The translations under genes and the position numbers were made by a program. Shown here piece after piece: positions 1 through 64,000 of a stretch of 64,000 nt of DNA. The stretch is from Hypomesus transpacificus (Eukaryota > Chordata > Actinopteri > Osmeriformes > Osmeridae). Positions within the stretch are counted from its first letter, which is position 1; each line of letters opens with the position of its first letter. Where the stretch lies: contig NC_061066.1 of the NCBI RefSeq assembly GCF_021917145.1, positions 4,316,782 to 4,380,781 on the forward strand, read 5' to 3'. Below the pieces are notes generated by a model that did no database searches, was not told where the DNA came from, and saw nothing but the letters and a program-made list of their open reading frames with translations.

Positions 1-1979
1 TTGAAGATGCTAAACTCCCCCGCCGCCCCCGCCGCCCCGCCGCAGCCTTCCGAGAGCCGCTCTGTGTTCTCTGGCCTCCCCAGAGGTGACGGCTGTCTTC
101 ACAAAACCTCCTCTGTTTCCTCTCACTGTGGGTCACAGCCACGGCGCGCTGACAATGCGCTCGGGGCCATTCTGCGCCCGCTTGCCTCCCATCAAACGCT
201 TCCTGACAGTAAACCAGACCGAAGAAGGAGGAGGAGGAAGAGGAGGAGCAGGAGGAACTGAAGGAGAACGAAGGGGAGGAGGAGAAGGAGGAGGAGGAGA
301 AGGAGGGGGTGAAGGAGGACAAAGGGGAAAGAGGAGAAGGAGGAGGTGAAGGAGGAGGAAGGGTGTTACCACACATAGCTTCCTTCCCCTCCGCTTCCAA
401 TCCCTTCCCCCTTCTCTCATCTCCCTCGTTCTTTCTCTTTGGCCAAGCCATCAGCGAAGCCGCTTAGACGTAAACGATATTGATGGGAAATGGAAATGAC
501 CTTTATGGGGACGTGGGAGGCAAAATCACCACGTTTAACGACCCTAAATGATTTATGCCTCCGAATACGGACAGGCTGCTGGGGATGAATACATAACCAC
601 CGCATGACAACTTCAGATGCAGTCACTTATTAATTGGACGTGGCATTTCAGGCCGTTAGTTAACACCGATCCCTTAGTGTACATCATCACATTCGATACA
701 CAGTCGATACATCACACGTCGATACAAAGCATGTGAGCAAAGGTTGATCAAAATCATTACCGAGCGCCGTCGTTTGGAAAAATCGAATGAAATGAGTTTG
801 GGCTCGCTCTATATACTTAATAACGTATATCCATAACACCATAATGTAGGCCTAGTCTGAACTGATACCATGCCCCTTTGGTTTTCAAAGAAGCGCTTTG
901 CCTGTGTCGCCTGATAGCTCGGCAACACCCTGGCCCCAACAGAGCACTGGAGATCACAGGTTCGAGTGGGTAGATCTGTTTTGCAACCCCAACCCTGACA
1001 GTGACGCCGCTAAAGTGCTGGAGACAGCTTGGGCTCCCGTCCTGAACATGACAGGGCGGTGGAGCCCGCCGCGGGCTCCTGAAGCCTCCTCACATCAGAG
1101 ACAAGGAGGTCTAAACAGAGATGGTTCCAACCTGTCATCCAAACCAGATGAGATGTGCTCTCAAGCCTCAGCCAGATTTAGCTTCCGCCTCCTCCTACTC
1201 CCAGCTTTTAGATCAAGCTCAACTACAGAAGGTTCCTCGGCTGCATCAAATGCCAATTTTTTTCCAGGCTTCGAAAGAGATATGACGTTTGAACTTTTAC
1301 AGAATAGCACGGAGATGCTGAGCTTGTCCTGTGACAAAAACAAAGAGTTATTTTAATACCACGCCAACCAAAGTATTATGCAGTAATAGGTTAACAGTTA
1401 CAGCATGGATATTAACACGCAATGGCTGCCCATTTTCCCCATTAAGCTTTCCTTCATGGAATCATGAAAAAAACTACATGTTGAGATAAGCCGTCTTCCT
1501 CAACAGAGCTCAGTCTTTCATGAGTAACGCTTGGTTTCCAGCTTTCTTGGGGCTGAATCTAATTATCGTCTCTCTGCAGGAAGCGCCCCTTACCCCACCC
1601 CTTTTCCCCCACACCTCACTCCTCAAGCTGAAACCCCCCCCGCCCTGCCTAAAGGTCATTATTCCTGCCCTCTCCACTTGCTCCTCCCACTGCCTCCTGG
1701 ATAAATGGCAATATTTACGCTTATTTATTCTGAGATCTAGAACTTTACGGGGAGAACATCTTCTTCTCTTGCGATTGCTCTGCCCTGTGGGCCAGATCCC
1801 CATGGTAACGTTGTGCTACTTAAGGGCGGTAATGTAAGCTCCTGCCAGCTCTGTGCAAACTCAGACTTGGCTTTTGGCAACAACAACAACAAATCCAGGA
1901 AAATAAATTCTCTACATGTCACTGCAAAGACTATGGTGTCCAGAGCAGTCCTCGGTCAGGACACAGAAAAGATACAGTT
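1..1979. other. Intergenic, GC- and purine-rich start
   Basis: No gene is supported here. The first 200 bases are GC-rich. Bases 222-357 form an almost uninterrupted GGA/GAA purine tract. Several reading frames are open only because of this composition, and a 152-codon frame at 898-1356 has no recognisable domain or splice context. Confidence 0.5.
222..357 (+). repeat. Polypurine (GGA)n-type tract
   Basis: About 135 bases made almost only of G and A on the plus strand, built from GAG, GGA and GAA triplets. Tracts like this can form triplex DNA. It explains the glutamate/glycine/arginine-rich open frames that overlap it. Confidence 0.85.
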
Positions 1980-2052
1980 CACCCAGACAGGGACTTGAAC
2001 CCCAGACCTACAGACTGAAAGCCCAGTGCTCTACTGACTGAGCTACCCAGAC
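1980..2052 (-). pseudogene. tRNA-like sequence (probable tRNA pseudogene)
   Basis: Read on the minus strand it has a normal D arm (TAGCTCAGTCAGTAGAGCA, an A box) and a T arm with GGTTCAAGTCC (a B box). The anticodon loop is CTTTCAG, reading TTC. A TTTT run follows about 10 bases downstream, as for a pol III terminator. The anticodon stem (CTGGG/TCTGT) has one mismatch and mostly G-U pairs, and the acceptor stem is also mostly G-U, so a functional tRNA is unlikely. The body resembles tRNA-Lys more than tRNA-Glu. It could also be the head of an old SINE. Confidence 0.5.
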
Positions 2053-4539
2053 ACTTTGCTACAATGCTACTTTCTCTATTATCTTCTTTGTCTTCTTCTG
2101 ATATGCTGAAGTCTACTAGGGAGGCCATCACTGGCAGTCGTGTCCGATGAGATAAGCCAGTCTTTCATTAACTGAAGCAGTGGGGGGGTGGGGGGTGGGG
2201 GAGGGCTGATACACAGGCACCCTCCTACAGGGGGGGGGGTGGGTATTGGGGGAAGAGGGGGGCATGACAACATGTGAGGCTGAGAAGCATGTGTTCGCCA
2301 TCCTTTAAAGAGACAGTTCCAGTGCCGACCCATGGTCAACAGTTTGCCTAAAAAAACAGGCGCTGTGTTGTCGGTACAGTGGGCTGTCCTCCTTGGTCAA
2401 GAAAAAGTCAATCACTTTACATGACGGTTACACTCACTACCATGTCACTGCATAGCAACACTGGTAGTCAAAAGATTATAGGTAAATAGGATTTGCTATG
2501 TCAATAAATGGTGTTGCGTGTAAGCGCGGTCTGGGTTATTTATGAAGTTTACGAAGGCACAGAATGGGGGAGAGGCGTGAGGGGTAAATGGATGCCGTAG
2601 AGGGGCAGTTGAAGGTTGCGTTACTAAAACAAGATCAATGTTAACATCCACTTACCCCTTGGGAAACCCAACCTCCACCATACCAAGTTTCACAAGTGTA
2701 ATAACTTGCACCGCTAAACCGTAATGAAGTGTAACTACATTGCAGATTCTATGTAGCCTAACTAAACTACTGCTATGATAAGAATTGCTATTACAGGTTG
2801 TTCTGGTAACCTTAATCTAAAGTGTGGCTCACCAAAAGAGAAAATTATAAATACAAAATATCATTACCCTTCATTTATGTCAACATGACTCTGATTTGCA
2901 CTCCTGACATCTAAGCTGCTATTTCTAACCCACGTTTCCAAGCTTAGCATGGTATAAGAAGCCAATCAGGTACGATAGGTCTAATTACCAAAGACGCTGG
3001 ATTTCATTATCCTTATCAGCACTGCTCCCACCACACAGGTCACCTCAACCTCACTCTCACTGAACACTTCATCGATACATGTTGGGGGAAAAAAACACTT
3101 TCCTTAAGTTATATATTATTTACCACTGTGGTAACACCTAATGAAAATCTGTTTAATTATTGAGGCAGGACCAGCAGGGCGGCAGAGAGGAAATTGACAT
3201 TTAAGGTCAAAAAACATCAAAGGACAAATACGGTGAGCCGTGTGACCCTTTTACACGGCACTAAAGGCAGACGTGACCGAACATGCAGGATCCAGATCAT
3301 CTTCTCCAACAGTCCACGTCCTTCTCTCCACCCCTAGAACCCCACGGAACCCAGCGTCAGTGATTCAAAGGGGGGAGACCGGTGCAGAGAACACGGCCTC
3401 CCTCCATCTTCTAAATAGACCCACACGGATTCGGGGATCCCTGAATGGATGTATACCATGGTTGTCAGCTATCTGAAGATCTCTTGGTTTCCTGCCAAAC
3501 CCCTCTCCCCTCTTTGACTGACTCAGTCCCTGCCAATAAAAGTGATAACTCAATCGATAAACGTCAGTCTCTGAACTGCCTGCCTTTCTTCCTTCTCTCT
3601 GTGGGCCCCTGGCACCGGTACCTAGCTCTACATCTTTGTGTGGGTGTATGTGTGTGCACCTGTGTGTGTGTATTTGACAGAGAGTGTGGGCTTGTGTGGA
3701 TTTGTGGGAGTGTATTTTTAAGAATGTTCATGTGTATGCTTGTGTGTGTGTGTGTATGTGTGTATGAAAGCAAGTTTATGTGTGAGTGCCTGTGTAAGTG
3801 CTTGCATGTGTGTGTGTGTGTGTGTTCATCCAAGCGTTTCATCTCTAATGGGAGCCCACCTTTCCGGGGACGCGGCCCTCTCCGCGAGGTGAGAGACCAG
3901 GGTGGCTGAGCAAGCATCTGCTAGCTGCCAGGGGACTCTTTGAAGATCACAAAGTGCTGGAATTGATTTCTGTTTTATGTCGGACCTGCTAACCAGAAGT
4001 CTCTCAGACGAGTGTAATTTTACTGGTTGGGACAGAAACCTGATATTAGTGTTCGAGCAGTCCCTCGAAGGTGTTTATTCAATCATTACGTCATCGATTA
4101 AGGCCTACGTCTCACGTCTTTGAGATTGCTTGTCTGTGTAACCTTATGACAGGTGAGGCAGGAAGCTTCGTTACAGATACAAAGCTTGGCTGGGGTCCTA
4201 CAAGCCTACTGTGCTACTCTCATTTCAAATTAAGGTTGTGAAGATGAACGCTCATCGTTAGGATTCATTCATCTCGCATGCGGGGTTGTAAACGTCTAGC
4301 AGATTTTGACGACAATTCTGTACGTCCAAAACCACACATACATAAAATATATATATATTTTTTATGTCCTTCTTTTGAAATGCTTAGCTCAGCCTTCGTG
4401 CAGGAGAAGTGTCCCTTATAGAAGACTGTATAGAATAGTGTCCTTTACAAATCCATTGACCATGGCTGTCACTGTGTCACATGACAACTGTTCATTATGA
4501 AAACACAGAGGTGAAGGGGCAGGCAGGTGGGAGTGCACT

Positions 4540-39360: not shown

Positions 39361-41962
39361 ACCCTTTCGTAAAACCACCAAATGAGTGATGGCACAGACA
39401 TAATAACAACTTTCCCAGCAACAGCTATAACACTCGCTAGACTGTCTAGATGCATCGACGCAAGTTAGACAGGGCTTTCCTACGGCTTGTAAACTAATCC
39501 ACAGGGTAAACAGCGTCCTTGAGCTGACATGTGCAATAGTTAGCTAAACGTCAGCTAGCTAATTAGATGGACTCCTTCCAAAGACACGTTCGTTTGTTGT
39601 AGTGTGTAAGACGATAACAAAATCAGTGGTAGGACTATACAAATCCATTTAATTCCGATAGATATCTACCTACTTTGGCGTCATTAGCAATGCCTAGCTG
39701 GTTATAAAAGGGCAAAACAACATTGACATAACGACTAAGAAAGACCACGATCCATGAAAGTCACATATCACTGAGTAGCCTAACATCACACAACCTGTTA
39801 CAAGTCCGATGACGATTTGTTTTTCTTGGAGACTTGTATACACTGATTCTGTATGTGTTCCTGTTAGCCCCATATACTTCACTATCAATACTTCACTATC
39901 AATGCCATAAACACACATCTCAACACAAAAGGCCGATTTCCAAGAACTTTCCAGGAATTGTATCACGTGGTGTGGAAGCCATTTAAGGTGGCACTAACTA
40001 CATGAGACATAGGTCTATTCCGCTTTCCGTCTCTCCCTCCCCTGTCACACACACTTGGGTACATTGTTTCCTCTTTGTGTGTGTCATAAATGATTTAATA
40101 GCCTACTTGTGATAAGCACACACAAAGCCGATGACATTAGATGTAAGCTATTTGTTATTTTATAGCTGCGAATAGTGAGCATTCAATAGGCTTACTTTTG
40201 TGTTAACAAAATAGTTTTACACATCCACATCTAAAACAAAGAGCAATGAACAGTTTGAACTCAGTTTAGTTAGACCTAAATAATGTTAACATTAGACTTA
40301 CAATGCGTTTGCCATAAAGGATGATGGAAATCATTTTCTCAGAAATGTATCAGAACAGAAGGGGGTAGGCTACAGCGAAACGTGCCGTTGCGTGTGCGCT
40401 TACAGAGCAGAAAGCAGATAACCAACGATGCAGCATCGATTCAACAGTGCCAAATGTATCAGAAGCAACCCAGTGATATATTGTCTATTCCAACGATTAA
40501 ACTTCCATGCAATATAATTTGTAGGCTATGTGAAGATACAAACCTGGCCCATTATTACATCCAATAGCCTAAATAATCATTTGGTTATCATTAGGATACT
40601 ATATGGACGCTTCATCGGTATTCTAGTCTCATTGAGAAATTTGCTAGAATTGCCTGTTGCCTACCATTTTTAGACCGCTCAGTTCTCGACTCATGTGGGC
40701 AGGGTCGGTCGGTAGTGGGCCGGTCTGTGTTTCAAAGTCCCACTGCAGTCTAGACCTGCATGTGGGTATGGTCTTGACATTAATTTCAGGGTATTCGCTG
40801 TATAAATATAGGCTACACCTCTAATTCGCTCGTCAGCTTTTAATACAATTTATTTTGGGAGCAACGGGCCTTTATTCAGAACACCCAATTACCGTGTATA
40901 AATCCAATAGCCTATAGGCTGCTGGATTTGAGACAGGCTTCTGATTAAAGGGTTACGATTGTTTCGGCCGTTAGATAATCTAAACTAGTGAAGTAAAACA
41001 CTTGACCTTTATCATTATTGGTGATTGATATTATTGATATTATTGGTTTTGATATCTGCAGAACGCTATATTGCAAAATGTTGTTGCACTGTGCCTTGTT
41101 AAATACAATTCCGTACTTTGACACGAATCCAATGCCTACTGTTGGAACTGCACAAGACCTCAAGCTGCAACATCACACCTCCTGTTAAAACTAAATAGAT
41201 GAGAGGCACACAGGTCTGTTTCTTTCAGTCTACCCCTCTCCATAGACACACGCAAACACATTCGCGCCACACACATTCACACGTCTGTAATTAAAAGTCA
41301 GTCACCAGTCCTAACAAGTTGACGGGCTCCATCATGCGATCAAATAGCAGAAGTGCATTGAGGGAGGACTTGAGGAGCTCTCCAACAGATGGCAGTAAAG
41401 TGTACAGCGAATTCCTACACTGCCTAGTCAAACAGGAAAAACGTCAAGGAAGAAGACCCAAGCGCGAAAACAAAACAGTGTTTAAGCGCGCTGCTTTTGA
41501 ACGGACACTATCCGTGACCAATCTCATGAGCTCCGACTGCTTACATTTAGTAAAACTATTGTATACAGTTCCATGAACCTTGTTTTTTTTTATTTTTTAT
41601 TTAAAGAAAACACACATGGTAGGTGTTTCTCTGTTTTCGCATGCAACTTGAACTCTCAGGGTTTTCAATGTCTGAATCATCCCGACCTACTCAGCTAGCT
41701 ACAGTAACTGTCTATGCTACTAGTTAACTAAGTTCTTGCTGGAGTACTGTACGTTGTGCTTAACAGTCAGTACTAGACTTGACAGCTTATTCAGCTAGTC
41801 TATTTTGCTTTCTAGCGAGTTAGTTTTGAATCCTATTTTCATCCATACTCACAAACGTTGTGCAAGCTATTAGGCTGTCCGTGTAACCTTTGGTGATGTT
41901 ACCAACAAGTATGCTAACAAAGTCTTACTGCATTATTTTCAAACATCGTTTGGAAGACAACT
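39361..41962. other. socs2-ncaph2 intergenic region
   Basis: The shared 5' flanks of two divergently transcribed genes. It contains three TTCNNNGAA sites (39,938, 39,949, 40,336) and a CTCF-like word at 41,382. No additional gene is seen; an 85-codon frame at 41,319 lacks recognisable features. Confidence 0.45.
39938..39957. promoter_or_regulatory. socs2: Tandem STAT (GAS) sites upstream of socs2
   Basis: TTCCAAGAA (39,938-39,946) and TTCCAGGAA (39,949-39,957) both match the STAT consensus TTCNNNGAA, with centres 11 bases apart. They lie about 660 bases upstream of the probable exon 1 donor of socs2. A third match, TTCTCAGAA, is at 40,336-40,344. SOCS2 is an established STAT5 target, and paired sites favour STAT5 tetramers. 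Binding here is inferred. Confidence 0.6.
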
Positions 41963-44900
41963 ATGGACTCAGCGGAGACTCGATTCGCTCACCTTTTGCA
42001 ACCCATCCGGGAGCTCACAAAGAACTGGGATGTTGACGTTGCTTCGGAGTTGGCTGATTATTTGGAAGAGGTAACGTGGATGGCTGGATACTATTTAGGT
42101 TTCGTTGTTATCGCGATATGGGCATATTCTGGAGGTACACGATGTTATCATGTTTGTATCATCACTTCCTGGTTATTTCAGTTGGACGAGATGTGCATCA
42201 CTTTCGACGGAGGCAAAACCACGCTTAATTTTGCAGAGGCAGCTCTTTTGATACAAGGGTCAACGTGTATCTACAGCAAGAAGGTAATTCAGTTGACTCG
42301 AGTCGGTCATTCGAGTCATTCAAGTCATCAACTTTCATACATCCAGAGCAAGTCTCCATTATGTGGCATCATGGTGGCGAGCGATGTTCTGGTGCTAACC
42401 ATATCTCACGTGCCAGGTGGAGCACCTGTATAACCTGGTGTATCAAACTCTGGACTACATTTCTGCCAGGAACAAAAAGTGAGTGATGGCCCAGTCACAG
42501 AACACTGCTCAGCCTGTCTCTGCAACGCCCCCCCCGCCCCCCATTTTGCATGTCCTCATTTCATCTGGCGCTTCTTGCAGGAGAGAAAAGCAGGCAGCGG
42601 GCGGGGAGGAGGGCGGAGAAACTGGGGGAGCAGATGGCAAAGACATGGACAATGCTGGGGTAAGCATAGGGGTGTGTGTGTGTGCCCATCTAAAACTTCC
42701 AGTTTCCTACCCAATCGATGTCCCAAGTCACTTGAAACAGGGAACTAGCATTGAAAGTGAAGTTGTCACATTCTATAGAAGTTGTTACACGCCAAAAGTA
42801 TCATCATCCTTGTACTGGCCCCCCGAGGCTGGGAGAGGGATGTTGTTTGGAGCGTAAGCAACAATCGTTTGGAGACGCTCTCCATGTCTTCCAGATGGAG
42901 TCTTTGGATCAGATCTCCTCCGAGACGTCTCAGAATGTAGAACTGAGGAACGAGTCAAATGCGGTGAGCAGCGTTTCAGAAAGACATCTTTTTCGTGCCA
43001 CCACAGTTGCCTCTCCAGTCTAGTAGCAGTAGCTGCTGTTACCAATCTGCTCATTTTTTGGCCTAGCTTGTGTGTGTGTGTGTGTGTGTCTGGAACACAT
43101 GTAATAGCTCTTCTGTGTGTGTGTGTGTGTGTGTTTGTGTCGTCAGAGTGCGGCCGTGGTGCCCCTCCCCCCCGACTCTCTGATTCCTCCTGAACCTTTT
43201 GAGAAGCAGAAGCTGCCGCTCATCAGGTAGGTGCTGAACACCCCAGAGCCCAGCCGGCCTCCTTCACCTGTCGAGGGCCGTCATGGAACTGTGTGTGCGT
43301 GTGTTCCAGTCTGAAAGGCGAGGTGATGGGCAGCTGCAAAGACTTCCGCATGAACACGTTTACTCCTGACGCCCTGGGCATCATCCGCCTCATCCTGGAC
43401 ACCGCCCGCTCCAACTTCCTGGGGGAAGCCCTTCTGGATGCCCCCATGGTTCCCATCAGCCTGTTCCACCACCAGGGTAGGGGGTGGAGGGAGGGCACCC
43501 AAAATCCGGACATCCATATTAAGACACATGACCAACGCTCATCCTAACACTACCTTTGTGGTGAATTCACATGACTGAAAAAGACCTGAAGCTATTGTGT
43601 GAAATCTAGACTCTTCAGCTCTTGACTACCCCTTTTATACGTGAGGGATACTTGTGTTGTGTTGTGTGTGTGTGTTTACTGTAATGAGTGCAGGGAATAC
43701 TGAATGTGTCGCTGGCCTTTCCAGATGATGCGGGACAGATGAGCGAGGATGCAGGGATGGGCGTCGCCGGGGGCGACCATGAAGACGGAGGAGAGCCGTT
43801 CCTTCCGTTAGAAGACGGGGCAGGGATGGAGCAGGAGCCAGAGGAGCACATCGAAAGACACCAGGTAAGACCTCCCTACTACCACCCCCACCCACCACCA
43901 CCAACCATCCCCCACTACCACCACCAACCATCCCCCACTACCACCACCAACCATCCCCCACTACCACCACCAACCATCCCCCACTACCACCACCAACCAT
44001 CCCCCACTACCACCACCAACCATCCCCCACTGCCACCACCAACCATCCCCCACTGCCACCACCAACCATCCCCCACTACCACCACCAACCATCCCCCACT
44101 ACCACCACCAACCATCCCCCACTACCACCACCAACCATCCCCCACTACCACCACCAACCATCCCCCACTACCACCACCAACCATCCCCCACTACCACCAC
44201 CAACCATCCCCCACTACCACCACCAACCATCCCCCACTGCCACCACCAACCATCCCCCACTACCACCACCAACCATCCCCCACTGCCACCACCAACCATC
44301 CACCACCCACCCACCACCCCAGTGTGTCTCCATCACGCAACACAGTATTGTGCAAAAGTCTTAGGCAGAAGAAGAAAAAATGCTTTATGAAATAATGAAA
44401 TGAATAGATATAGATATATACACACACACACAAGACCATTTGAATGTAAAAACATCTTAGGTGCCTAAGACTTCTGCACAGGACTGTACAAGGTCGCACA
44501 TGCATTCTTAAAACCACGACTCATGGATCCTGTGTGTGTTTTGTCTGTCCCAGGCCCTCGGCGAGGGCAGGGTGCTGAGGGCGAGGCGGGGCGTCCAGTC
44601 TGCAGAGGAGGAGGAGCAGAGTGACAAGAGGATGGAGGAGCAGAGAGCCCAGGCGGTACGCTCCACCCAGACAGACAGCCAGGCAGACAGCCAGGCAGAC
44701 AGCCAGACAGCCAGACAGACAGACAGACACACACAGACAGACACCCAGACAGACACACCCAGCCAGACAGACAGACACCCAGCCAGACAGCCCAGACAGA
44801 CAGACACCCAGCCAGACAGACACCCAGCCAGACAGACACCCAGCCAGACAGACACCCAGCCAGACAGACACCCAGCCAGACAGACACCCAGCCAGACAGA

Positions 44901-45269
44901 CACAGACAGACCCCCGTACGGGACAGAACCCTCTCAATAGAGAATCTCTGATAGTAGTCATTTGTTTTTTCCCCAGGCCAATGCATGGAGGTTACATGAT
45001 CCGTACACGCCGTTCGGGGAGGACAAGCCCCTGAAAACAGGTGAGGGAACGTGGCTAGGCTGGTGTTCATACCAGAGTCGCACATGGGTCAGCCTGTGGC
45101 TCATTTCATTTGGCTCATTTCTGTGTGTTTGTGTGTGTGTTTTTCTCCGTCTCCTCTCAGGGAAGTGTTACAAGGTGCCTGCAGGCCTGGATGATTCCGG
45201 AAAGAGGAAAAGAAAGGGGCCCTCGGGGCTGCAGGACTTCTTGAGCTGGTACACTGGCACATGTAAGCT

Positions 45270-47770: not shown

Positions 47771-48742
47771 TCACTCAGGCAGTAACTTCACATACGCTTT
47801 CATGTGCTTCCTGATGCTGTCGGCGATCTGGCCGTCGCTCTTCATCCGGTTGTAGTAGTCCAGGAACAGGCCGTCGGGGTCCACCAGGTAGATGAGAATG
47901 GTGTGGTCCACGATGTAGTCCCCGTCCTCGTCCTTGGGCCCCAGGCTGGCGTACACGCGGTAGTCCCTCCCCGCCTGCCTCACCTCCTCCGTGGTGCCCG
48001 TCAGGCCGATCACGCGCGGGTGGAAGTCCCCGACGTACCGAGCCAGCGCCGCCACGTCGTCCCTCTCGGGGTCCACGGTGACAAAGAGGGGCTGGACGGG
48101 CGGCAGGGCGGGGTCCTGGTCCAGGGCCGTGACCACGGCGCTCAGCTTGTCCAGCTCCTCGGGGCAGATGTCCGGGCAGTGGGTGAAGCCAAAGTACAGC
48201 AGCACCCAGCTCCCCAGGAAGTCTTTCTTGGTCCTCCGCTGCCCCCTGTGGTCCAGGAGGTGGAAGTCCCCGTGGCCCAGAGCCACCTGCCTCAGCTGCT
48301 CCATGCGTTGCGTCCGCCGTCTCTGCTCCTTCTCCGAGTGGGCGTACCACCAGGTTCCCAGCAGCCCGCCGCCAAACAGCAGGGTCACCAGCAGACGGGT
48401 CCGCAGCTTGATGTTGGCGGCAGACTCGGAGGGGTTGGGTTTGGGGGAGGGGGCCTGGGAGAGGAGGACCCTGTGGGTCAGGAGTGGGAGGGTTGGGGGG
48501 CGGTGATGGGGACCGGCTTGTGTGGGCTGTGCGTGGATCCCATACAACCCTGCTGCTCTCTGGTCAAGGGAATGACAAGGGAGACGTCCACTGGGCTGAG
48601 GCTGTGACGAAAGCCATGCCCTTTGGAGAAGGAAGGAGTTAAAGGTGTGATGGGAATCAGGCTTCAAGGTGTACTTCAATAGCTTTCCAGTATGGAGCTC
48701 ACAGGTTGCTAGCCCGAGTACCCTCCTCTCCAAGTAAAGCAT
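47771..48742 (-). CDS. sco2: SCO2 copper chaperone, mitochondrial
   Basis: Delivers copper to the CuA site of cytochrome c oxidase subunit 2; anchored in the mitochondrial inner membrane. A single coding exon of 323 aa from ATG to stop. An Arg-containing N-terminus could serve as a targeting sequence. A membrane segment lies at about 113-133 ([19 protein letters not shown]). The thioredoxin-like domain follows with [14 protein letters not shown], giving the copper-binding Cys189 and Cys193. VDPERDD and the conserved His280 ([14 protein letters not shown]) come later. The N-terminus is longer than in human SCO2 (266 aa, from memory), so a later start is possible. An acceptor, TTTACAG, 17 bases before the ATG suggests a 5' UTR intron. 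SCO1 is the main alternative; the ncaph2 neighbour and single coding exon favour SCO2. Confidence 0.9.
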
Positions 48743-49464
48743 CCTTCCAATTCAGAATCTGTAAATGGTATAAACCGGTGAATAAGTATATAATAATATG
48801 CTGTGTCAATTCCTAATCAAATGACGAGTATCCATAGCTGTAAAACAAGCACCGAAAGTCCAACTGTTACAGTACACCAGCTGCACTCTGGTAGCTAGAT
48901 AGCTATGCTAATATGTTTTCAATCTAAAAGCATAAATGACGATCCTTAAGTGAAGCAAACCCAAGCGTTACAGATAACACGTATTCAACTTTGCAAAGAT
49001 ATCACGAGACAGTATAAATCTATTTTTTTCTAGAAATATTCATCAACTTGCCGGCAAATCGACCTTCCAATGCAACCTACTCATGGAATCATGTGGTTTC
49101 GTTTTGCAACCGAAGAAACAGGACAGAGGTTTCAAAGTCGCGAATTCGACATTTACACCTAAATTGTACACACAGGTTCAAATAGTAGAAACTCCCATTT
49201 CATAAAACTATATCCGTATTTAGGTTGTATGATTTTATTGAATTTCTTGTAGGGTATACATTAGATTTTATATTACCATTACATTCATGGGACTGCAATC
49301 AGCAGATTCGTGTGGAAACAGGTGAGTGCCATAGCAAAGAAGTACCACTAGATGGTGCTGATATATCTGACACTGATATAAAATGACAATTGACATCGTC
49401 AGAGTTCTAGGGTCTTTACATCCTTTAAGCTACAATGGATACCGCCAGGTATCCACAAACCCTT
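48743..49464. other. sco2 upstream region / GT92 gene 3' flank
   Basis: AT-rich sequence containing an AATAAA on the minus strand (49,234-49,239) that could serve the upstream GT92 gene, and a CTCF-like word at 49,345. The sco2 transcription start is not determined. Confidence 0.4.
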
Positions 49465-53740: not shown

Positions 53741-55401
53741 CAGTGCCCTCCAAAAGTATTGGAACAGTGAGGCGAATTCCTTTATTTTTGCTGTAGACTG
53801 AAAACATTTGGGCTTGACATCAAATAATGAACGTGAGACCAGAGATCAACGTTTCAGCTTTTATTTCCAGGTATTTACATCAGGATCTGATGCACAACTA
53901 AGAAAATATCACATTTTGTTTGAATCCACCCATTTGTCATGTGAGCAAAAGTATTGGAACAGATATACTTAAAACATATTTAAGTGAATAAGACTTAATA
54001 TTTAGTTGCAAATCCTTTGCTTTCAATAACTGCAGCAAGTCTGTGACCCATTGACGTCACCAAACTTTTGCATTCTTCCTTTTTGATGCTTTCCCAGGCT
54101 TTCACTGCAGCCTCTTTCAGTTGTTGTTTGTTTTGTGGGGTTCCTCCCTTCAGTCTCCTCTTAAGCAGGTAAAATGCATGCTCTATAGGGTTTAAGTCTG
54201 GAGATTGACTTGGCCAGTCTAATACCTTCCATTTCTTGCCCCTGATGAACTCCTTTGTTGTTTTGGCAGTGTGTTTTGGGTCGTTATCTTGCTGCATGAT
54301 GAAGGCTCTGCCAATCAGTTTGGTTGCATCTTTCCTTAAATTGGCAGACAAAATGTTTCTGTAGACTTCCGAGTTCATTTTGCTGCTGCCATCATGTGTT
54401 ACATCCTCAATGAAGATTAATGAGCCCGTCCCAGAAGAAGCCATGCAAGCCCAAGCCATGACATTACCTCCACCGTGTTTCACAGATGAGCTTGTGTGTT
54501 TGGGATCATGAGCAGTTCCTTTCTTTCTCCAAACTTTAGCCTTTCCATCACTTTGGTAAAAGTTAATCTTTGTCTCATCAGTCCATAAAACTTTGTCCCA
54601 GAATTTTTGAGGTTCATCTCTGTACTTTTTGGCAAATTCCAGCCTGGCCTTCCTATTCTTCTTGCTAATGAGTGGTTTGCATCTTCTGGTGTAGCCCTTG
54701 TACTTTTGTTCATGAAGTCTTCTGCGAACAGTAGATAGTGATACCTTCACTCCTGCCATCTGGAGGTTGTTGCTGATCTCACTAACAGTTGTTTTAGGGT
54801 CTTTCTTTACAGCTCTCACAATGTCTCTGTCATCAACTGCTGATGTTTTCCTTGGTCTACCTGTTCGACGTCTGTTACTTAGTACACCAGTAGTTTTCTT
54901 CTTCTTCAGGACATTCCAAATGGTTGTACTGGCTATGGCCAATGTTTCTGCAATGGCTCTGATTGATTTTCCATCTTCTCTAAGACTCACAATTGCTTGT
55001 TTTTCACCCAAAGACAGCGCTCTGGTTTTCATGTTGTTTTCACCTCTGAATACAGTCTGCATAGACAAAACCTATCTTACCCAATCTGAACCTGAGTGTA
55101 GACATTCAGTGGTATTTATTGATTGAATAATGTATGTAATAGGACACACCTGGGCAACAAAACACACCTGTCAGTCACATGTTCCAATACTTTTGCTCAC
55201 GTGACAAATGGGTGGGTTCGAACAAAAAGGTGATATTTTCTAATTTGTGCATCAGATCCTGATGTAAATACCTGGAAATAAAAGCTGAAACGTTGATCTC
55301 TGGTTTCACATTCATCGTTTGATGTCAAGCCCAAATGTTTTCAGTCTACAGCAAAAATAAAGGAATTGGCCTCACTGTTCCAATACTTTTGGAGGGCACT
55401 G
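53741..55401 (-). mobile_element. Tc1-like transposon, complete
   Basis: Flanked by TA on both sides (53,739-53,740 and 55,402-55,403). Inverted repeats of about 220 bases begin CAGTGCCCTCCAAAAGTATT. Each arm carries the word CAAAAGTATTGGAACAG twice, once at the outer edge and once about 200 bases inwards. This is the IR/DR arrangement of Sleeping Beauty-type Tc1 elements. It contains an uninterrupted transposase gene and sits a few bases before the start codon of another Tc1-like element. Confidence 0.92.
53995..55032 (-). CDS. Tc1-like transposase, intact
   Basis: A DDE transposase of 345 aa from the ATG that fits the family (MKTRALSLGEKQAIV); an ATG at 55,062 would add ten residues. The N-terminal paired-type helix-turn-helix region (SIRAIAETLAIASTTIWNVL) is followed by the GRPR-type minor-groove motif (RRTGRPRK) and a second helix-turn-helix. 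The catalytic residues are present in order: [18 protein letters not shown] and SPDLNPIE. It ends in the family signature GFATKY. No stop or frameshift was seen, which suggests recent activity. Confidence 0.9.
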   Translation of the reverse strand: MKTRALSLGEKQAIVSLREDGKSIRAIAETLAIASTTIWNVLKKKKTTGVLSNRRRTGRPRKTSAVDDRDIVRAVKKDPKTTVSEISNNLQMAGVKVSLSTVRRRLHEQKYKGYTRRCKPLISKKNRKARLEFAKKYRDEPQKFWDKVLWTDETKINFYQSDGKAKVWRKKGTAHDPKHTSSSVKHGGGNVMAWACMASSGTGSLIFIEDVTHDGSSKMNSEVYRNILSANLRKDATKLIGRAFIMQQDNDPKHTAKTTKEFIRGKKWKVLDWPSQSPDLNPIEHAFYLLKRRLKGGTPQNKQQLKEAAVKAWESIKKEECKSLVTSMGHRLAAVIESKGFATKY

Positions 55402-56650
55402 TATCTACTATGGCCAAGACCAAAGAGCTGTCAAAGGACACCAGGAACAAAATTGTAGACCTGCACCAGGCTGGGAAGACTGAATCTGCAATAGGTAAGC
55501 AGCTTGGTGTGAAGAAAACAACTGTGGGAGCAATTATTAGAAAATGGAAGACACACAAGACCACTGATAGTCTCCCTCGATCTGGTGCTCCACGCAAGAT
55601 CTCATCCCGTGGGGTCAAAATGATCACAAGAACGATGAAGAAAAATCCCAGAACCACACAGGGGGACCTAGTGAATGACCTTCAGAGAGCTGGGACCAAC
55701 GTAACAAAGGCTACCATCAGTAACACACTACACCACCAGGGACTCAAATCCTGCAGTGCCAGATGTGTCCCCCTGCTTAAGCCAGTACATGTCCCGGCCC
55801 GTCTGAAGTTTGCTAGAGAGCATTTGGATGATCCAGAAGAGGATTGGGAGAATGTCACATGGTCAGATGAAACCAAAATAGAACTTTTTGGTAAAAACTC
55901 AACTCGTCGTGTTTGGAGGAGAAAGAATGCCGAATTGCAGCCAAAGAACACCATACCTACTGTGAAGCATGGGGGTGGAAACATCATGCTTTGGGGCTGT
56001 TTTTCTGCAAGGGGACCAGGACGACTGATCCGTGTAAAGGAAAGAATGAATGGGGCCGTGTATCTTGAGATTTTGAGTGAAAACCTCCTTCCATCAGCAA
56101 GGGCATTGAAGATGAAACGTGGTTGGGTCTTTCAGCATGACAATGATCCCAAACACACCGCCCGGGCAATGAAGGAGTGGTTTCGTAAGAAGCATTTCAA
56201 GGTCCTGGAGTGGCCCAGCCAGTCTCCAGATCTCAACCCCATAGAAAATCTGTGGAGGGAGTTGAAAGTCCGTGTTGCACATCGACAGCCCCAAAACATC
56301 ACTGCTCTAGAGAAGATCTGCATGGAGGAATGGGCCAAAATACCAGCAACAGTGTATGAAAAGCCTAACAGAAAGACTAACAGAAAACGTTTGACCTCTG
56401 TCATTGCCAACAAAGGGTATATAACAAAGTATTGAGATGAACTTTTGTTATCGACCAAATACTTATCTTCCATCATAATTTGCAAATAAATTCTTTAAAA
56501 ATCAGACAATGTGAGTTTCTGGATTTTTTTTGCCTCATTTTGTCTTTCATCAGAGGTATACCTATGATGAAAATTACAGGCCTCTCTCATCTTTTTAAGT
56601 GGGAGAACCTGCACAATTGGTGGCTGACTAAATACTTTTTTGCCCCACTG
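55402..56650 (+). mobile_element. Second Tc1-like transposon, 5' end lost or displaced
   Basis: The right end reads, outwards, CTGACTAAATACTTTTTTGC then CCCACTG at 56,650. This is the end sequence of a very common fish Tc1 family (its reverse complement begins CAGTGGGGCAAAAAAG). The left inverted repeat is not found either next to the start codon or left of the first element at 53,741. The first element interrupts this one just before its ATG. The flank after the right end is AA, not TA. Confidence 0.8.
55410..56435 (+). CDS. Tc1-like transposase, open frame
   Basis: 341 aa from ATG ([20 protein letters not shown]) to stop. It has paired-like helix-turn-helix segments ([20 protein letters not shown]), a GAPRK motif, and the catalytic triad in [22 protein letters not shown] and [11 protein letters not shown]. 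It ends NKGYITKY. The sequence is close to the remembered fish consensus, apart from an altered stretch near the C-terminus ([14 protein letters not shown]). It lies opposite in orientation to the transposase at 53,995. Confidence 0.88.
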
Positions 56651-58477: not shown

Positions 58478-58604
58478 GATGTGGAAATGCTGGACTTCAA
58501 AAGAAAATGTTATTACAAAATATTGATCTGAACAACAGTTGTGGGTTTGTTCAAGACAGTAATTTAGATTTTCGAACAGTTTAAAAAAAATCTGTGAACA
58601 GGTA

Positions 58605-58685
58605 GTGCTCCCCTGGTGGCTAACTGGGTAGTGTGTCTCAGACTAAGGTCTGAGTCATGGACTGGGGTTTGAGTCTAGCCTGGAC
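58605..58685 (+). mobile_element. Possible tRNA-derived SINE head
   Basis: Contains an A-box-like TGGCTAACTGGGTAG and a B-box-like GGGTTTGAGTCTAG about 40 bases apart. This is a tRNA-like arrangement of a different family from the other SINEs. No tail was recognised. Confidence 0.3.
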
Positions 58686-59012
58686 TTTTTCCTGCTTTTC
58701 TCTTTCTTACTACCTTTCCTCTCACTTTTTCACTGTACCAAATAAAAGCAAAAATCTGGTCAATAATCTTAAACAAGGAAATATTGTCCAGAATCTAGTA
58801 ATAGGTTTTATGAAATATGGCAATGATATGATCAGCTAAATGTGAGAATTGAAGTACAATTACATAAAATGCAATAAACGAATATAAAACCAAATTTAAT
58901 CCTTTAATTTTGTACAATACCACTCAGTGAACAGCACAAATCACCTACAACTATGAGAATGTTTGTTTAGTGTAGAAAACGTCCAACACAAGAAATTACG
59001 ATGGTTTTTTAT

Positions 59013-59215
59013 TCAGGGACGATGTACAAACACTTACGTTTCAGGTTCAACTTAGGTCTGGTCAAGTTGGAAATGCTCTGAAGAGCACAAACTCTTGCTT
59101 TCTCTCACTGCTTCAGTCAGTGGGTTCAAGTTTTTTGGGGGATAATCCATGTATTTAACATTACAAACACAACAGGCCAATCAACTAGACATCCCTCTCT
59201 CATATACACACAAAA
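59013..59215. repeat. Diverged duplicate of 52,190-52,440
   Basis: Shares ordered words with the segment near 52.2 kb: TCAGGGACGATGTAC, GAAATGCTCTGAA, the TCACTGCTTCAGTCAGTG-like stretch, AACATTACAAA and CAACAGG. Many substitutions and indels separate them. It lies just downstream of the TRIM remnant. Confidence 0.6.
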
Positions 59216-59332
59216 GCTTTTAATAGACATCAAATTTGACATGTGAGGTTTACACCCAAATCTGAAGGCACATCTAAACAGAGGACAAACAAATAATTTT
59301 CATGAGGCAAAATGTCAAGTGACTCAAAATAC

Positions 59333-59338
59333 TTTATT
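59333..59338 (-). terminator. Polyadenylation signal of the snoRNA host
   Basis: AATAAA on the minus strand (in TTTTTAATAAAGTATTTT), about 80 bases into the last exon. This supports a pol II polyadenylated transcript. Confidence 0.75.
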
Positions 59339-59506
59339 AAAAATATCCAACCACACAGATGCCAATCATTGAATGGGATTTGCGGCAGGACATGTTGGCT
59401 GGAATAGTTCCCCAAACACCTGTAGATATGATACATTTGCATGAGTAAGGAATAACCAAAAAGGTTCAGTAGCCAAGAGTTTGCATAAATGTGAGGAACT
59501 GCATAA

Positions 59507-59635
59507 GCTTGTTGCCCCTTGAAACAGCAAGCCAGTCATTGAGGACCAGCTTAACATCCAGGGGCAGTGCTGTGGGATCACTGCGTAAAGGGCCAGCAGC
59601 AGAACAGCCTGACTGGCCCCCTTTGAATGGGATCC
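59507..59635 (-). ncRNA. H/ACA box snoRNA (host intron 8)
   Basis: 129 nt. The 5' hairpin closes with GGATC/GATCC. The hinge H box is ACAGCA, matching ANANNA. The 3' hairpin closes with TGCCCCT/AGGGGCA, and ACA lies exactly three nucleotides from the predicted end (ACAAGC). H/ACA RNAs guide pseudouridylation with dyskerin, NOP10, NHP2 and GAR1. The target was not determined. Confidence 0.8.
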
Positions 59636-59703
59636 ACATTTTCAATAGCAACAAGGGGCCCGCTCACCTTTCTAAAGTTGCCCCCAGTCTGCATGCGCAC
59701 CAC

Positions 59704-59949
59704 CTGAAAAGAGAAAGTTTACATTTAACACAAGTACTTGGAAAGCTTTTGCTTGTAGCAGAGGGGTAACTTGGAAAAATGTTCCCAGGAGATCACCTAA
59801 GCATGGCTGCTGAGGAGACCAACTGGGATGAGATTCACTTTATGGTCAATTCCACAGCAAGTCAGGAACTGAGTCTCCTAAAAGCCTTGGTATATGACCA
59901 AATTAGCACTGACAAACACCCAAGGGGGAAAACAGCTGGACCATCTTAC
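59704..59949 (-). other. Host intron 7: weak sixth H/ACA candidate
   Basis: A possible 3' hairpin closes with CCCAG/CTGGG followed by AACATTT, which would place ACA three bases from an end. A partner ATGGTC/GACCAT stem lies upstream. No ANANNA hinge was found between them, so I do not call it a snoRNA. Confidence 0.25.
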
Positions 59950-60200
59950 CATGGGTGGGGCTTCAGTTCCTCTTTAAACCGCTCTTGGTACAACAACTTC
60001 CGTTACGGGCATACCTGCAAGAGGAGAACAATGGAAGAAAAAAATCTTTAACAGACATGTAGCAGAGCCCTGTGACATCACAAGCTCTGCACATGGCTTA
60101 AAGGGTTGGGTATGCTGAACACTTCAACTCTGGGGCAACCCTAGTCCACAAATGGCAACTATATAAAGAGCCGTTCACTGTTAAGCAGATATGAGAATAG

Positions 60201-60355
60201 TAATGTCTCTGCATAAATACCAGGGATCCAGCCACAAGATGGCACAGATCCCAACGATGCCAGATACAGAGTTGCTATTGCACCGTTTAATGAACAGAGC
60301 AGCCTGTGGCGAGGGCTGACTGCAGATACCATACAGTGCGTCACAATTGGGTGCA
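60201..60355 (-). ncRNA. H/ACA box snoRNA (host intron 6)
   Basis: 155 nt. The 5' hairpin closes with TGCACC/GGTGCA. The H box ATAGCA follows. The 3' hairpin has CTCTG/CAGAG at its base and GGGATC/GATCCC inside. ACATTA gives an ACA box three nucleotides from the end. Its 5' hairpin shares GGTATCTGCAG and CTGTTCAT with the RNA at 60,490, showing duplication. Confidence 0.82.
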
Positions 60356-60489
60356 TTTTTGATCACTTGGCACTTACTTGGCATCAGGCAGCATCACATC
60401 CTATGCAGGTCTATGGTCTTTGGATGCAAAGGGAGATTCAGATGTTGGAATTTTGACAAGGTAAAAAAGAATAATACATGACAGAAATA

Positions 60490-60622
60490 ATATATATGAC
60501 AAATATACCAGGACTCCAAGCACAGCACATGGAGACCAACGATGCGGGATGTCAAAATTGATCTTGCACCAAGTTATGAACAGACCAGAGGGAGAAGCCG
60601 CTGGCTGCAGATACCTTAATGC
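60490..60622 (-). ncRNA. H/ACA box snoRNA (host intron 5), paralogue
   Basis: 133 nt. The 5' hairpin closes with GCATTAAG/CTTGGTGC (with G-U pairs). The H box is AGATCA. The 3' hairpin closes with TGACA/TGTCA. The terminal box is ATA rather than ACA, a variant known in some H/ACA RNAs. It is a paralogue of the RNA at 60,201; the shared words include GCATCGTTGG and TCCTGGTAT in the 3' hairpin. Confidence 0.7.
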
Positions 60623-60827
60623 TACTTTCAAAGGGACATCACAACCCTAATTTCATCTAGCATCAAGGAGGATTACTCAAATATTGTGAACGCTTTGCTC
60701 ACCATCAGGTAGACTGTGCTGGAGCGCCATCTGGTGCTCATTTACAGACCTACACCAGGGCAAAGAAAAGGGCTATATGAAACAAGTGAGACGGGCCACA
60801 ATAACAGCTGTTATGGGAGCATTTTGA

Positions 60828-60958
60828 ACTTGTTCTGCAGTAATATCCCACACAGCTAATGGCAGTAGCCTTGAGGGTAAAGCGAAACCACAGGTATATT
60901 CTATGAGGCATTTCCAACGACAAGGCCCAACCGAGAAAGGTCTGTCGGGATAGGCCTC
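60828..60958 (-). ncRNA. H/ACA box snoRNA (host intron 4)
   Basis: 131 nt. The 5' hairpin closes with GAGGC/GCCTC. The H box is ATAGAA (or AGAATA). The 3' hairpin closes with CTGTGG/CTGCAG (with G-U pairs), followed by AACAAGT, placing ACA three nucleotides from the end. The same intron also contains a SINE upstream of it. Confidence 0.8.
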
Positions 60959-61050
60959 AAAACACTAGACCGTTGATGATGTCAAGATTGACTCGAGTTT
61001 ATCAATTTACAACATGCAACAAACCGTAGCATGTGAACTCAAGTGTGCCC

Positions 61051-61217
61051 ATCATTTATATTTAGTCTGTTAGCAGGTGCTCTTATCCAGGGCGACTTAC
61101 AGTAAGTACAGGGACATTCTTCCTGAGAAAAGTAGTGTGAAATGCCTTGCCCAAGGACACAACATCACTTGGTACGGCCAAGAATCGAAGCCCGACTCAG
61201 TCATCTAACCCCATCAG
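61051..61217 (-). mobile_element. tRNA-derived SINE in snoRNA-host intron 4
   Basis: The same family as the SINE at 13,809, more diverged and with a damaged tRNA head. The tail (GGATAAGAGCACCTGCTAAC) and middle (CCTTGGGCAAGGCATTTCAC) are clear on the minus strand. Confidence 0.75.
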
Positions 61218-61490
61218 CCAAACATATCTGTAATAGGAAAATTTGTATCACACACAATTCATTTGGGATAAAACATATCTGCAAGCTCTGTGTTCAGAAA
61301 GGCACGTATCATTCACAGCTCAGAGCAGTTGAACATTTTAGCCAATCATCATTACACGAGTATTTTTTTAAAACATTTTTTAAGTTGCTTACCTGGCTGT
61401 GTTTTGCCACATCCGCACCCATTGTCAGCCTTGAAACAGAAATATAAAATGGTCAACCACTTGAGGCCGTTGACATGTAACAGTCCTAGT

Positions 61491-61620
61491 GCATGTTCAG
61501 TCTCATAAGTAACACTGCTGCTGAAAGCACAGCAGTGGGTTGCAAGAGAATGGATTGCTCTGAGCACTGCTCCAGCACTCTGGTCCACTATTAGTCAAGA
61601 CCGGCGCTGGCGCTGTGCTT
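61491..61620 (-). ncRNA. H/ACA box snoRNA (host intron 3)
   Basis: 130 nt. The 5' hairpin has AGCAC/GTGCT at its base and GGTC/GACC near its loop. The H box is AGAGCA. The 3' hairpin has TCTC/GAGA at its base and an inner CACTGCTG/CAGCAGTG stem. AACATGC gives ACA three nucleotides from the end. Confidence 0.82.
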
Positions 61621-62323
61621 ACAAAAGCTACTTAAAAAAGCCAACGCTTAGCATTTAGTTAATCCATGTGGATTCACATTCGCCACGACGTTTGTAAATA
61701 TAAATTAGACACAGTAGGCAAATAGCTCAAATTGAAATAGCCTTAAAAAAATTGGAGGCGCAACAGCCAACCACGAGTCATATATCCTATTTGCTTACCT
61801 CATGGCTAAGTGTCATGGTTTCCTGTTGACTAGTGCATGGGTATACGCTGCAAGTCATGAGGCCCTCCTGCAATTGCCTGCAAAGTTAAGACAGTTCAAA
61901 TTAAGACCGCTGACATAGGCGCAACCGAAGAAGACAGGAAGAAACCATTCGTTAAAACAAATTACAAATAGCTGGCATTTAGCAAAACATGTAATTTGAG
62001 TTTATTTTTGCTAACAAGCGTTGCAATTTTAGCATGCAGCCAACAATGGCTGTTTAAGTTCTAGCAGAAACGTGTAATATGTTTCGGGCCTCATTGTCAT
62101 CCAACTGCAACTAACCATGCAGAGATGAAAGCAAAACCCGAGCGTCATTTCGCCATGTCACTTACAGAATTTGCCCAGTAGTTCTAGCAAACTCAACTCG
62201 TGGTGGATGGCTAGGGCTGAATAGCTTCTTGCAGTACTGTGCTAGTTACATACAATTGCTTGCTAACATACCACGTGGCTAACACTTTCTGCCTTGACAG
62301 TGCTTTCACAAAAATAGCAGACG

Positions 62324-62358
62324 ATTTATATTCGTGGTTTTAAACCACGAATATAAAT
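62324..62358. repeat. Perfect inverted repeat, 17-bp arms
   Basis: ATTTATATTCGTGGTTT, one T, then its exact reverse complement. It lies in intron 1 of the snoRNA host, about 30 bases from the exon 1 donor, so the transcript could form a 17-bp hairpin there. Confidence 0.9.
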
Positions 62359-62486
62359 ACGTAAATATAAATGACGGCGCTTACACAATGTTTCATCAAG
62401 TTTTACCGCTACCGGCTAGGTGCTATGCTTGACAACCCTCGCTCTGGATCTTCTGGAAAATAGGCTGATCTAACACTGGCTGGGCG

Positions 62487-62539
62487 TTTATATATCTCAC
62501 GCGAAAGAAAACGCTTTACGGCATATCGATCTATCCAAT
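62487..62539 (-). promoter_or_regulatory. TATA and CCAAT boxes of the snoRNA host
   Basis: TATATAAA on the minus strand (62,494-62,487), with CCAAT at 62,535-62,539 about 45 bases further upstream. Transcription would begin near 62,460-62,465, consistent with the exon 1 donor at 62,384. Confidence 0.6.
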
Positions 62540-63646
62540 CACAGTGCGATATATTTTACCACCAAAATTGATTAAAATTAAGGACATATTTTAAATGGCT
62601 AAATCATTAAACGTCTTAAAATCTGGTACACTCATGTATTGTTTACACACTAGCAAAACATGCAAAAATAAAATACGGAAAGACAGGGGCGATTCTAGGA
62701 TCAGACCTTGAATACAGACATGAATTCAGTGCCTTTCAAAAGTGCTAAACCCCCTTGTTAATGTAAATCCCTAATTTCACTGGTTAACAATCAATACATT
62801 TATGTATTTTTATGCAAAATATTGAATGAATGAAAAAACGGATGTCCCTTTCTTCATTAATTACCAGCATCACATGATGATAATAAAACAAATTACATTT
62901 TACTATTATTATTTTTATGGGTGCTGAGATGCGCTTAGATGGAAAGCAGCATTGTTGGGCTGAAGCTCAAAATCGTGCCTTTGAACGATCCTTGGCGATG
63001 GAGGAGCTGGATTTTTCTGTATCGCTTCAAAGCTTTTCTACAACCCTTTTCAAATGTGTTGGCATGTTCAGTTCTTGCACATTTTTCAAGGAACAAAAAT
63101 GTAGTTTCTTTATCAACACAGGCATATTATCCGGACAACTATGGTCCGCATCCAATCAGAGCTCATATACATGACACCTTCATAAAATCCAGTAATCGTG
63201 TACCCCGATATTTTAAGCGAGTCAAGTAGCAAGAAAAGTACACAAGTGCATTTTGGTGAGCCCCGAGAATGTCTAATAGGGGTTAGTGTTAGGAGGCTTC
63301 TGGGACTAGCGCTAGATCCAGAGCAGGAGGTTGGGACCAGGACTGGATGCAGATCAGGTGAAAGAGCAAGCCCCCCCCTCCCCCCATATCTAAGAGCTGA
63401 CACTCCCCAATTTATGCGGGAATGTGGACAATCTGGATGGCGACACTAACTGGGTAATAGCTTGTAAACTGGTATTGAATACAATACTGTTTTCACTACT
63501 AGACACATTTATAATGAAGCATTGGTATTTCTTTGTGCAAGAGGTAATGTTATTATAGGTGACAGTGACAGTTTTTGCCATTCCTATTGTTTGATCATTC
63601 ATTATCATTCCACAAATTAATCTTAATATTAATCTCAAACTCTCAG
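62540..63646. other. Interval with transposon fragments
   Basis: Holds a CAGGGGCG hAT-like end near 62,684, a Tc1-like terminal fragment from about 62,727 (CAGTGCCTTTCAAAAGTGCT, then ACCCCCTTG), and AT-rich unique sequence. Open frames at 62,917-63,450 have no recognisable domain. Confidence 0.4.
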
Positions 63647-63745
63647 GTTGGCTGTGACAGGTGCCTCAGATGGTTCCATCAGGGTTGTGCTCGGATCCAA
63701 CTGACAGAGGAATACATATGTGCTGCCTGCCGTAAACAGCCCTGA
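63647..63745 (+). CDS. Last exon encoding the C-terminal half of a PHD finger (partial)
   Basis: An acceptor (AAACTCTCAG) is followed by 32 codons and a stop: VGCDRCLRWFHQGCARI, then EEYICAACRKQP. The spacing C-x2-C, W-F-H-x2-C, then C-x2-C is the second half of a C4HC3 PHD finger, a zinc-binding module that often reads histone H3 tails. The first two cysteines and the rest of the protein would lie in upstream exons that I could not find. AATAAA occurs about 60 bases downstream. It may be a chromatin gene's terminal exon or a transposon-derived PHD fragment. Confidence 0.5.
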   Translation, partial: VGCDRCLRWFHQGCARIQLTEEYICAACRKQP

Positions 63746-64000
63746 CCTGTTTTCCTGATCAAGCCTCAAACTTGTTAAAACTCTTATTTAAATGATAAAA
63801 AAAATAAAAAAAATATTTTATTATAGTTTTTTGTTTAAAACAAGTTTGATGGAAGCAATCCAAATGTCATCATTTATTAGATGTTTTTCACTAGCCAGTC
63901 ACAAAGGGAAGGTCCAGGCTTGGCTTAATCGCTACTAGAACCAAGCACTGTACTTGCAAGTGAGAAGATACTAACAAGGCTGTGAGAAGCAGGATCTATG
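63746..64000. other. Terminal 255 bases
   Basis: A/T-rich sequence including an AAATAAAA-rich run that could carry the polyadenylation signal of the PHD exon, then unique sequence with no coding signal. Confidence 0.35.

Follow-up and report, generated by a model that had tools for sequence, protein, structure and literature searches.

A Hypomesus transpacificus locus as the probable fish equivalent of the TAF1D (JOSD3) snoRNA cluster of other vertebrates: element content, host structure, and element order

Introduction

Human TAF1D (JOSD3) carries the small nucleolar RNAs (snoRNAs) SNORA40, SNORA18, SNORA8, SNORA1, SNORA32, SNORA25, SNORD5, and SNORD6 in its introns, and the same set occurs in one chicken gene (PMC2653536, 2009). 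Two neighbour pairs of the human cluster also appear in PMC4234469. The chicken gene (cluster 15, host ENSGALESTG00000033205) holds one snoRNA per intron and is annotated as a novel protein-coding gene. Its snoRNA order was described as unlike that of human and other vertebrates, and a possible lineage-specific translocation was proposed (PMC2653536). Here we describe a locus at 59.3–62.5 kb, on the minus strand, of a 64,000-nucleotide stretch of Hypomesus transpacificus DNA (NC_061066.1, positions 4,316,782 to 4,380,781; hereafter the window). Very probably, this locus corresponds in fish to the TAF1D cluster and lies in a short spliced and apparently non-coding host. As a gene it is ordinary; what makes it worth describing is chiefly the order of its snoRNAs and the host that surrounds them. 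Among the open-access literature matches listed, judged by titles and abstract openings, no description of the cluster in a fish was seen, which is not proof of absence.

Results

snoRNA content of the locus

Rfam searches were run at gathering scores over the window, at E ≤ 5 over 58800–63200, and at E ≤ 2 over the full 64 kb. Eight snoRNA-like elements were matched at the locus, seven of them H/ACA and one box C/D. Read 5′ to 3′, the order is SNORA1, SNORA40, snoZ40 (SNORD6), SNORA18, a second SNORA8-like copy, SNORA8, SNORA32, and SNORA25 (Table 1). SNORA18, snoZ40, and SNORA8 reached the Rfam gathering score. In the 58800–63200 search against 4227 families, the one listed first for every one of the eight elements was a TAF1D-cluster family. 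All matches fall in the TAF1D set; seven of its eight member families are matched, three of the seven by an above-gathering match, and SNORD5 is the one not found. It is nearly certain that these elements represent the TAF1D set. Outside the gene, the 64 kb search gave four weak snoRNA-type matches (SCARNA7 twice, SCARNA2, and sno_ZL1; E 0.2–0.83), none of the TAF1D set. The two SNORA8 copies are identical at 99 of 146 alignment columns.

A sequence-only reading of this DNA had proposed a spliced host with five H/ACA snoRNAs in five introns, no C/D box RNA, and no named host recognised. Its detection of the locus from raw sequence was good, and a spliced host with one guide per intron is well supported. 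The count rises to eight elements, with seven H/ACA RNAs in place of five; they occupy eight introns provided that the exon at 61227 is genuine. The statement that all were H/ACA falls with snoZ40, a box C/D RNA at 53.8 bits (gathering 50), and the unnamed set matches human TAF1D/JOSD3 and the chicken host (PMC2653536). The Rfam comparison that it had suggested placed all elements in families, with the gathering score reached in only three of eight.

In addition to its family match, the snoZ40 element shows C and D boxes closed by a terminal stem, and its antisense element agrees with the published C/G spacing; the link between the names snoZ40 and SNORD6 is taken from PMC3050891. The antisense core shared with SNORD5, TTCAACTGC, has two mismatch-free occurrences in 64 kb (1.14 expected by chance), once in snoZ40 itself and once at 2605. 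A looser 16-base core (at least 13 matching) gave snoZ40 and one opposite-strand site at 61446. Scanning both strands of the window for C/D boxes with a terminal stem returned 11 candidates, and two of these had both internal boxes or lay past 58.5 kb: snoZ40 and plus-strand 62874–62927. The latter, AT-rich and lacking a D′ box, was rejected as SNORD5.

Several other weak Rfam matches were discarded as overlapping or chance: mir-557 and TB8Cs3H1 over SNORA18, SNORA30 over SNORA40, sR17, SNORD110, and sR12 over snoZ40, and Hrs13 at 60038–60114. An exact 28S pattern had 0 matches in the viral-contig and genome-contig collections, and a SNORA18 pattern had 0 in the viral-contig collection.

Folding and box motifs

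Folding was a check proposed with the earlier reading, and the minimum free energy (MFE) structure showed two hairpins in all seven H/ACA elements; with one extra 3′ base, the SNORA40 structure additionally pairs the hinge with the tail. An ANANNA hinge, previously ascribed to each of five elements, was observed in six of seven, the nearest motif in SNORA32 being ATAAAG. The ACA box, three nucleotides from the end, is present in six, and the second SNORA8 copy has ATA, as had been described for one element. Fold z-scores against dinucleotide shuffles ranged from −0.80 to −3.62 for the H/ACA elements (SNORA1 −2.76, SNORA40 −3.17, SNORA32 −3.62, SNORA25 −2.16), and the value of −0.80 belongs to SNORA18, the strongest Rfam match. 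snoZ40 also gave −0.80.

In a crude H/ACA structural scan of both strands of the 64 kb, 50 of 5378 ACA/ATA sites passed, 22 of them at MFE ≤ −30 kcal/mol. Seven of the 22 (five distinct elements) lay within the host on its own strand, a target that makes up about 2.5% of the DNA scanned; six of the remaining 15 lay on the opposite strand of the host region. The scan missed SNORA40 and SNORA32. Because it passes 15 other sites, fold alone is weak and non-decisive evidence, and since the surest element, SNORA18, has a z of only −0.80, fold energy was dropped as sole proof. The predicted snoRNA identities are carried by Rfam, not by fold.

Exons, splice sites, and transcript ends

Splice sites were scored with approximate matrices over 324 GTs and 283 AGs in 59000–64000. 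The predicted donors at 61393, 59668, 61799, 60703, 60378, and 59950 are six of the top seven GTs, and the acceptors at 60014, 59703, 61227, and 61877 are the top four AGs. The acceptors at 60749, 59419, and 61429 are outscored by several unused sites, for example 63979 (9.2), 61122 (8.9), and 59077 (8.7). The minus strand, the short exons, the TATA/CCAAT pair (TATATAAA and an inverted CCAAT), and AATAAA were all read in the sequence as had been claimed. The good splice signals claimed with them hold at most junctions; the exon 1 and exon 4 donors and the exon 6 acceptor are weak or guessed.

The predicted structure has eight introns of a single host on the same strand, with one snoRNA each (again if the exon at 61227 is real). 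The boundary between introns 3 and 4 depends on the inferred, SINE-interrupted exon (SINE, short interspersed nuclear element), and intron 5 depends on the guessed acceptor. The acceptor at 61227 sits 60 nt past snoZ40, and the spacing from snoRNA to 3′ splice site is 60–87 nt in six of eight introns. We consider this predicted arrangement, a spliced multi-snoRNA host with one guide RNA per intron, well supported. The candidate start region reads GCCTATTTTCC, which is pyrimidine-rich and broken by A, so an uninterrupted 5′ terminal oligopyrimidine (5′TOP) start is not evident.

The SINE at 61040–61240 (minus strand) lies between snoZ40 and SNORA18, has a UnaL2-type 3′ tail, and is flanked on both sides by TGATGGG. 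It has three relatives of 80–84% in the window, near 13.9, 28.5, and 30.3 kb, and probably interrupts an old exon. Intron 1 contains a perfect 17-bp inverted repeat with a 1-nt gap (62324–62358).

Coding capacity of the host

The longest spliced open reading frame (ORF) reached at most 56 codons in four exon choices, and at most 38 codons in the three choices that omit the SINE exon. Pfam includes a TAF1D model, and a three-frame scan of the minus strand from 58501 to 64000 gave no match to the TAF1D domain; the sole match listed there was VanZ (E 0.38, sub-threshold). Ten ORFs across the window were also scanned with Pfam, of which eight matched and the two from the host region matched none. 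On balance, the host probably has no protein product.

Features of the locus and other observations in the window

Table 1. Predicted features of the snoRNA host locus, in window positions and in order of transcription
Feature	Positions	Strand	Evidence
Core promoter candidates	62487..62539	-	Inverted CCAAT 62539-62535 and TATATAAA 62494-62487; consensus match only; inferred start ~62464
Exon 1	62407..62465	-	Donor uncertain, 62407 or 62385 (3.9 and 4.0, weak)
SNORA1-like H/ACA, intron 1	62077..62212	-	RF00408, 47.1 bits, E 4.3e-6; below gathering score (70)
Exon 2	61799..61877	-	Acceptor 9.5, donor 10.6
SNORA40-like H/ACA, intron 2	61491..61619 (Rfam match 61492-61619)	-	RF00561, 32.3 bits, E 0.0069; below gathering score (51)
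Exon 3	61393..61429	-	Acceptor 6.2, donor 11.6
snoZ40 / SNORD6 (mgh28S-2411) box C/D, intron 3	61288..61359	-	RF00342, 53.8 bits, E 7e-10; gathering 50 exceeded
Exon 4, inferred, SINE-interrupted	61101..61227	-	Acceptor 9.9 at 61227; donor 61101 (6.3) uncertain, inside SINE
SNORA18 H/ACA, intron 4	60828..60961	-	RF00425, 101.9 bits, E 3.7e-18; above gathering
Exon 5	60703..60749	-	Acceptor 7.2, donor 9.1
Second SNORA8-like H/ACA, AUA box, intron 5	60488..60623	-	RF00393, 31.0 bits, E 0.0086; below gathering score (38)
Exon 6, 5′ end guessed	60378..60430	-	Donor 8.9 at 60378; no acceptor among 34 best
SNORA8 H/ACA, intron 6	60201..60340	-	RF00393, 45.1 bits, E 5.4e-6; above gathering
Exon 7	59950..60014	-	Acceptor 13.2, donor 8.2
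SNORA32-like H/ACA, intron 7	59777..59900	-	RF00421, 52.4 bits, E 1.2e-6; below gathering score (60)
Exon 8	59668..59703	-	Acceptor 13.0, donor 11.3
SNORA25-like H/ACA, intron 8	59507..59635	-	RF00402, 32.9 bits, E 0.0058; below gathering score (85)
Exon 9, AATAAA at 59338-59333	59312..59419	-	Acceptor 7.1; signal read in sequence

The matched ORFs of the window were of SOCS-box/SH2, CARD, THAP, condensin CAP-H2, SCO1/SenC, glycosyltransferase 92, TRIM, and Tc1-like transposase types. These gene types, the UnaL2-type elements, and the SINE point to a fish as the source. Genes of SOCS-box/SH2 and CARD type lie near 36 and 31 kb, respectively, and a condensin CAP-H2-type gene (41918–42430, plus strand) and a SCO1/SenC-type gene (47774–48751, minus strand) lie close together. 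From the domain matches we take these genes to be SOCS2, CRADD, NCAPH2, and SCO2; the last two would presumably recall the human NCAPH2-SCO2 neighbours. Two adjacent long open frames of Tc1-like transposase type were observed at 53998–55071 (minus) and 55323–56435 (plus); the former matches Pfam transposase domains and the latter is known as an ORF only. A 23-bp tandem repeat (43881–44306; 18.5 copies, 97% matching) lies inside long open frames of three plus-strand frames, and a degenerate 16-bp/CAGA tandem array occupies 44663–44911. A transfer RNA gene for Glu (TTC) was observed at 1979–2053 (minus strand).

Discussion

Several results weigh against the identification of this locus as the TAF1D cluster in a stand-alone host. 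Five of the eight elements are sub-gathering, and their assignments lean on position and context as well as on E-value and fold. E-values for SNORA40, SNORA25, and the second SNORA8 were 0.006–0.009 in the 4.4 kb search and about 0.1 in the 64 kb search. SNORD5 was not found in the window by the shared-core and C/D box scans. Among splice signals, the three weak or guessed sites count on the same side, as do SNORA1 and SNORA8, which are distant from their 3′ splice sites (199 nt and 186 nt). The window ends 1.5 kb upstream, and TAF1D coding exons could sit beyond 64000. In PMC2832892 (Table 2, Ensembl 50), the number of SNORA25 loci is given as 0 for zebrafish, medaka, Xenopus, and chicken alike; this table may under-count, because ACA25 is reported in chicken in PMC2653536.

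The window edge bears directly on the nature of the host, which might be the 3′ portion of a conventional fish TAF1D gene, its coding exons past the edge and its apparent promoter and exon 1 internal sequence. The chicken set occupies introns 5–12 of a gene with upstream exons (PMC2653536). Here an acceptor-like site at 62452 (6.6) falls inside the supposed exon 1, and in the 1.5 kb visible upstream, 63979 scores strongly as an acceptor (9.2) and 63747 resembles a donor (8.0). However, CCAAT and TATA boxes stand at normal spacing directly upstream of exon 1, the Pfam scan of 58501–64000 (minus strand, three frames) listed VanZ and no TAF1D match, and no long spliced ORF was observed. We therefore regard a TAF1D 3′ part as possible but doubtful.

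The weaker family assignments raise a separate issue. The SNORA40-like, SNORA25-like, and second SNORA8 elements could be unrelated H/ACA RNAs or decayed copies that merely resemble the families, as their sub-threshold scores, the AUA box and 99/146 identical columns of the second SNORA8, and the zero count of SNORA25 outside mammals (PMC2832892, Table 2) would allow. We consider this unlikely, as SNORA25 occupies the place that it has in chicken and SNORA40 is off by no more than one place, the three folds have z-scores of −2.16 to −3.17, and each element has a member of the TAF1D set as its top listed family among 4227. That the elements are chance inverted repeats of an intron-rich region, with no genuine snoRNAs, is improbable in the extreme: the crude fold rule does pass 15 other sites at MFE ≤ −30, but E-values of 3.7e-18 (SNORA18) and 7e-10 (snoZ40) speak against it, as do the joint presence and the ordering of a single known set.

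A fish TAF1D-type cluster in its own short host would be expressed by the mechanism established for such snoRNA host genes; the sequence, family matches, folds, and splice signals are what is observed here, and transcription, processing, and targets are proposed. RNA polymerase II would transcribe the host from the TATA/CCAAT promoter. Each splicing event would free one intron, to be debranched and trimmed by exonucleases back to the assembled snoRNA–protein complex. The H/ACA RNAs are predicted to act in dyskerin complexes as guides of ribosomal RNA (rRNA) pseudouridylation, and the single C/D RNA, in a fibrillarin complex, would guide 2′-O-methylation of the 28S G equivalent to human G2411.

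Comparison with known clusters

Non-coding hosts such as GAS5, UHG, and U17HG likewise have short exons, intronic snoRNAs, and no long ORF (in part, PMC2653536 and PMC6954239). They carry a different snoRNA set, and an uninterrupted 5′TOP start is not evident in the candidate start region of the present host. Compared with human TAF1D, which likewise gathers SNORA40, SNORA18, SNORA8, SNORA1, SNORD6, SNORA32, and SNORA25 in the introns of one gene (PMC2653536), the fish locus has a different order, no detected SNORD5, and a doubled SNORA8. Its host has short exons, its own TATA/CCAAT boxes, and no TAF1D domain in the visible part.

For the comparison of order, PMC2653536 supplied both references: its listing gave the human sequence of elements and its intron numbers gave that of chicken, with seven elements shared. 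The fish order differs from chicken by 1 of 21 inversions (7 of 5040 permutations are as good) and from human by 5 of 21 (343 of 5040); between chicken and human the number is 4 (174 of 5040). As the order here is near that of chicken and unlike that of human, it may be the human order that was rearranged. The chicken-like order may thus be older, although this comes from one window, and SNORA1 and SNORA40, the pair swapped relative to chicken, are weaker family assignments. More tentatively, the cluster could have begun in a stand-alone non-coding host kept in this fish, with the order SNORD6-SNORA18-SNORA8-SNORA32-SNORA25 retained in chicken, and with TAF1D and the human order as a later fusion and reshuffle; we think such a history possible but hardly the likelier one. 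If true, it would reverse the published view of the chicken order as lineage-specific. The probable fish member supplies an outgroup for the order of a conserved rRNA-guide cluster, and raises the question of whether guide RNA clusters retain their order while the surrounding host gene changes.

Chicken cluster 15 has the same set, likewise with one snoRNA per intron. Relative to it, ACA1 and ACA40 are swapped, mgh28S-2409 was not found here, and there are two SNORA8-type copies, against one ACA8 listed for the chicken gene (PMC2653536). From mgh28S-2411 onward, the order of the two clusters is identical.
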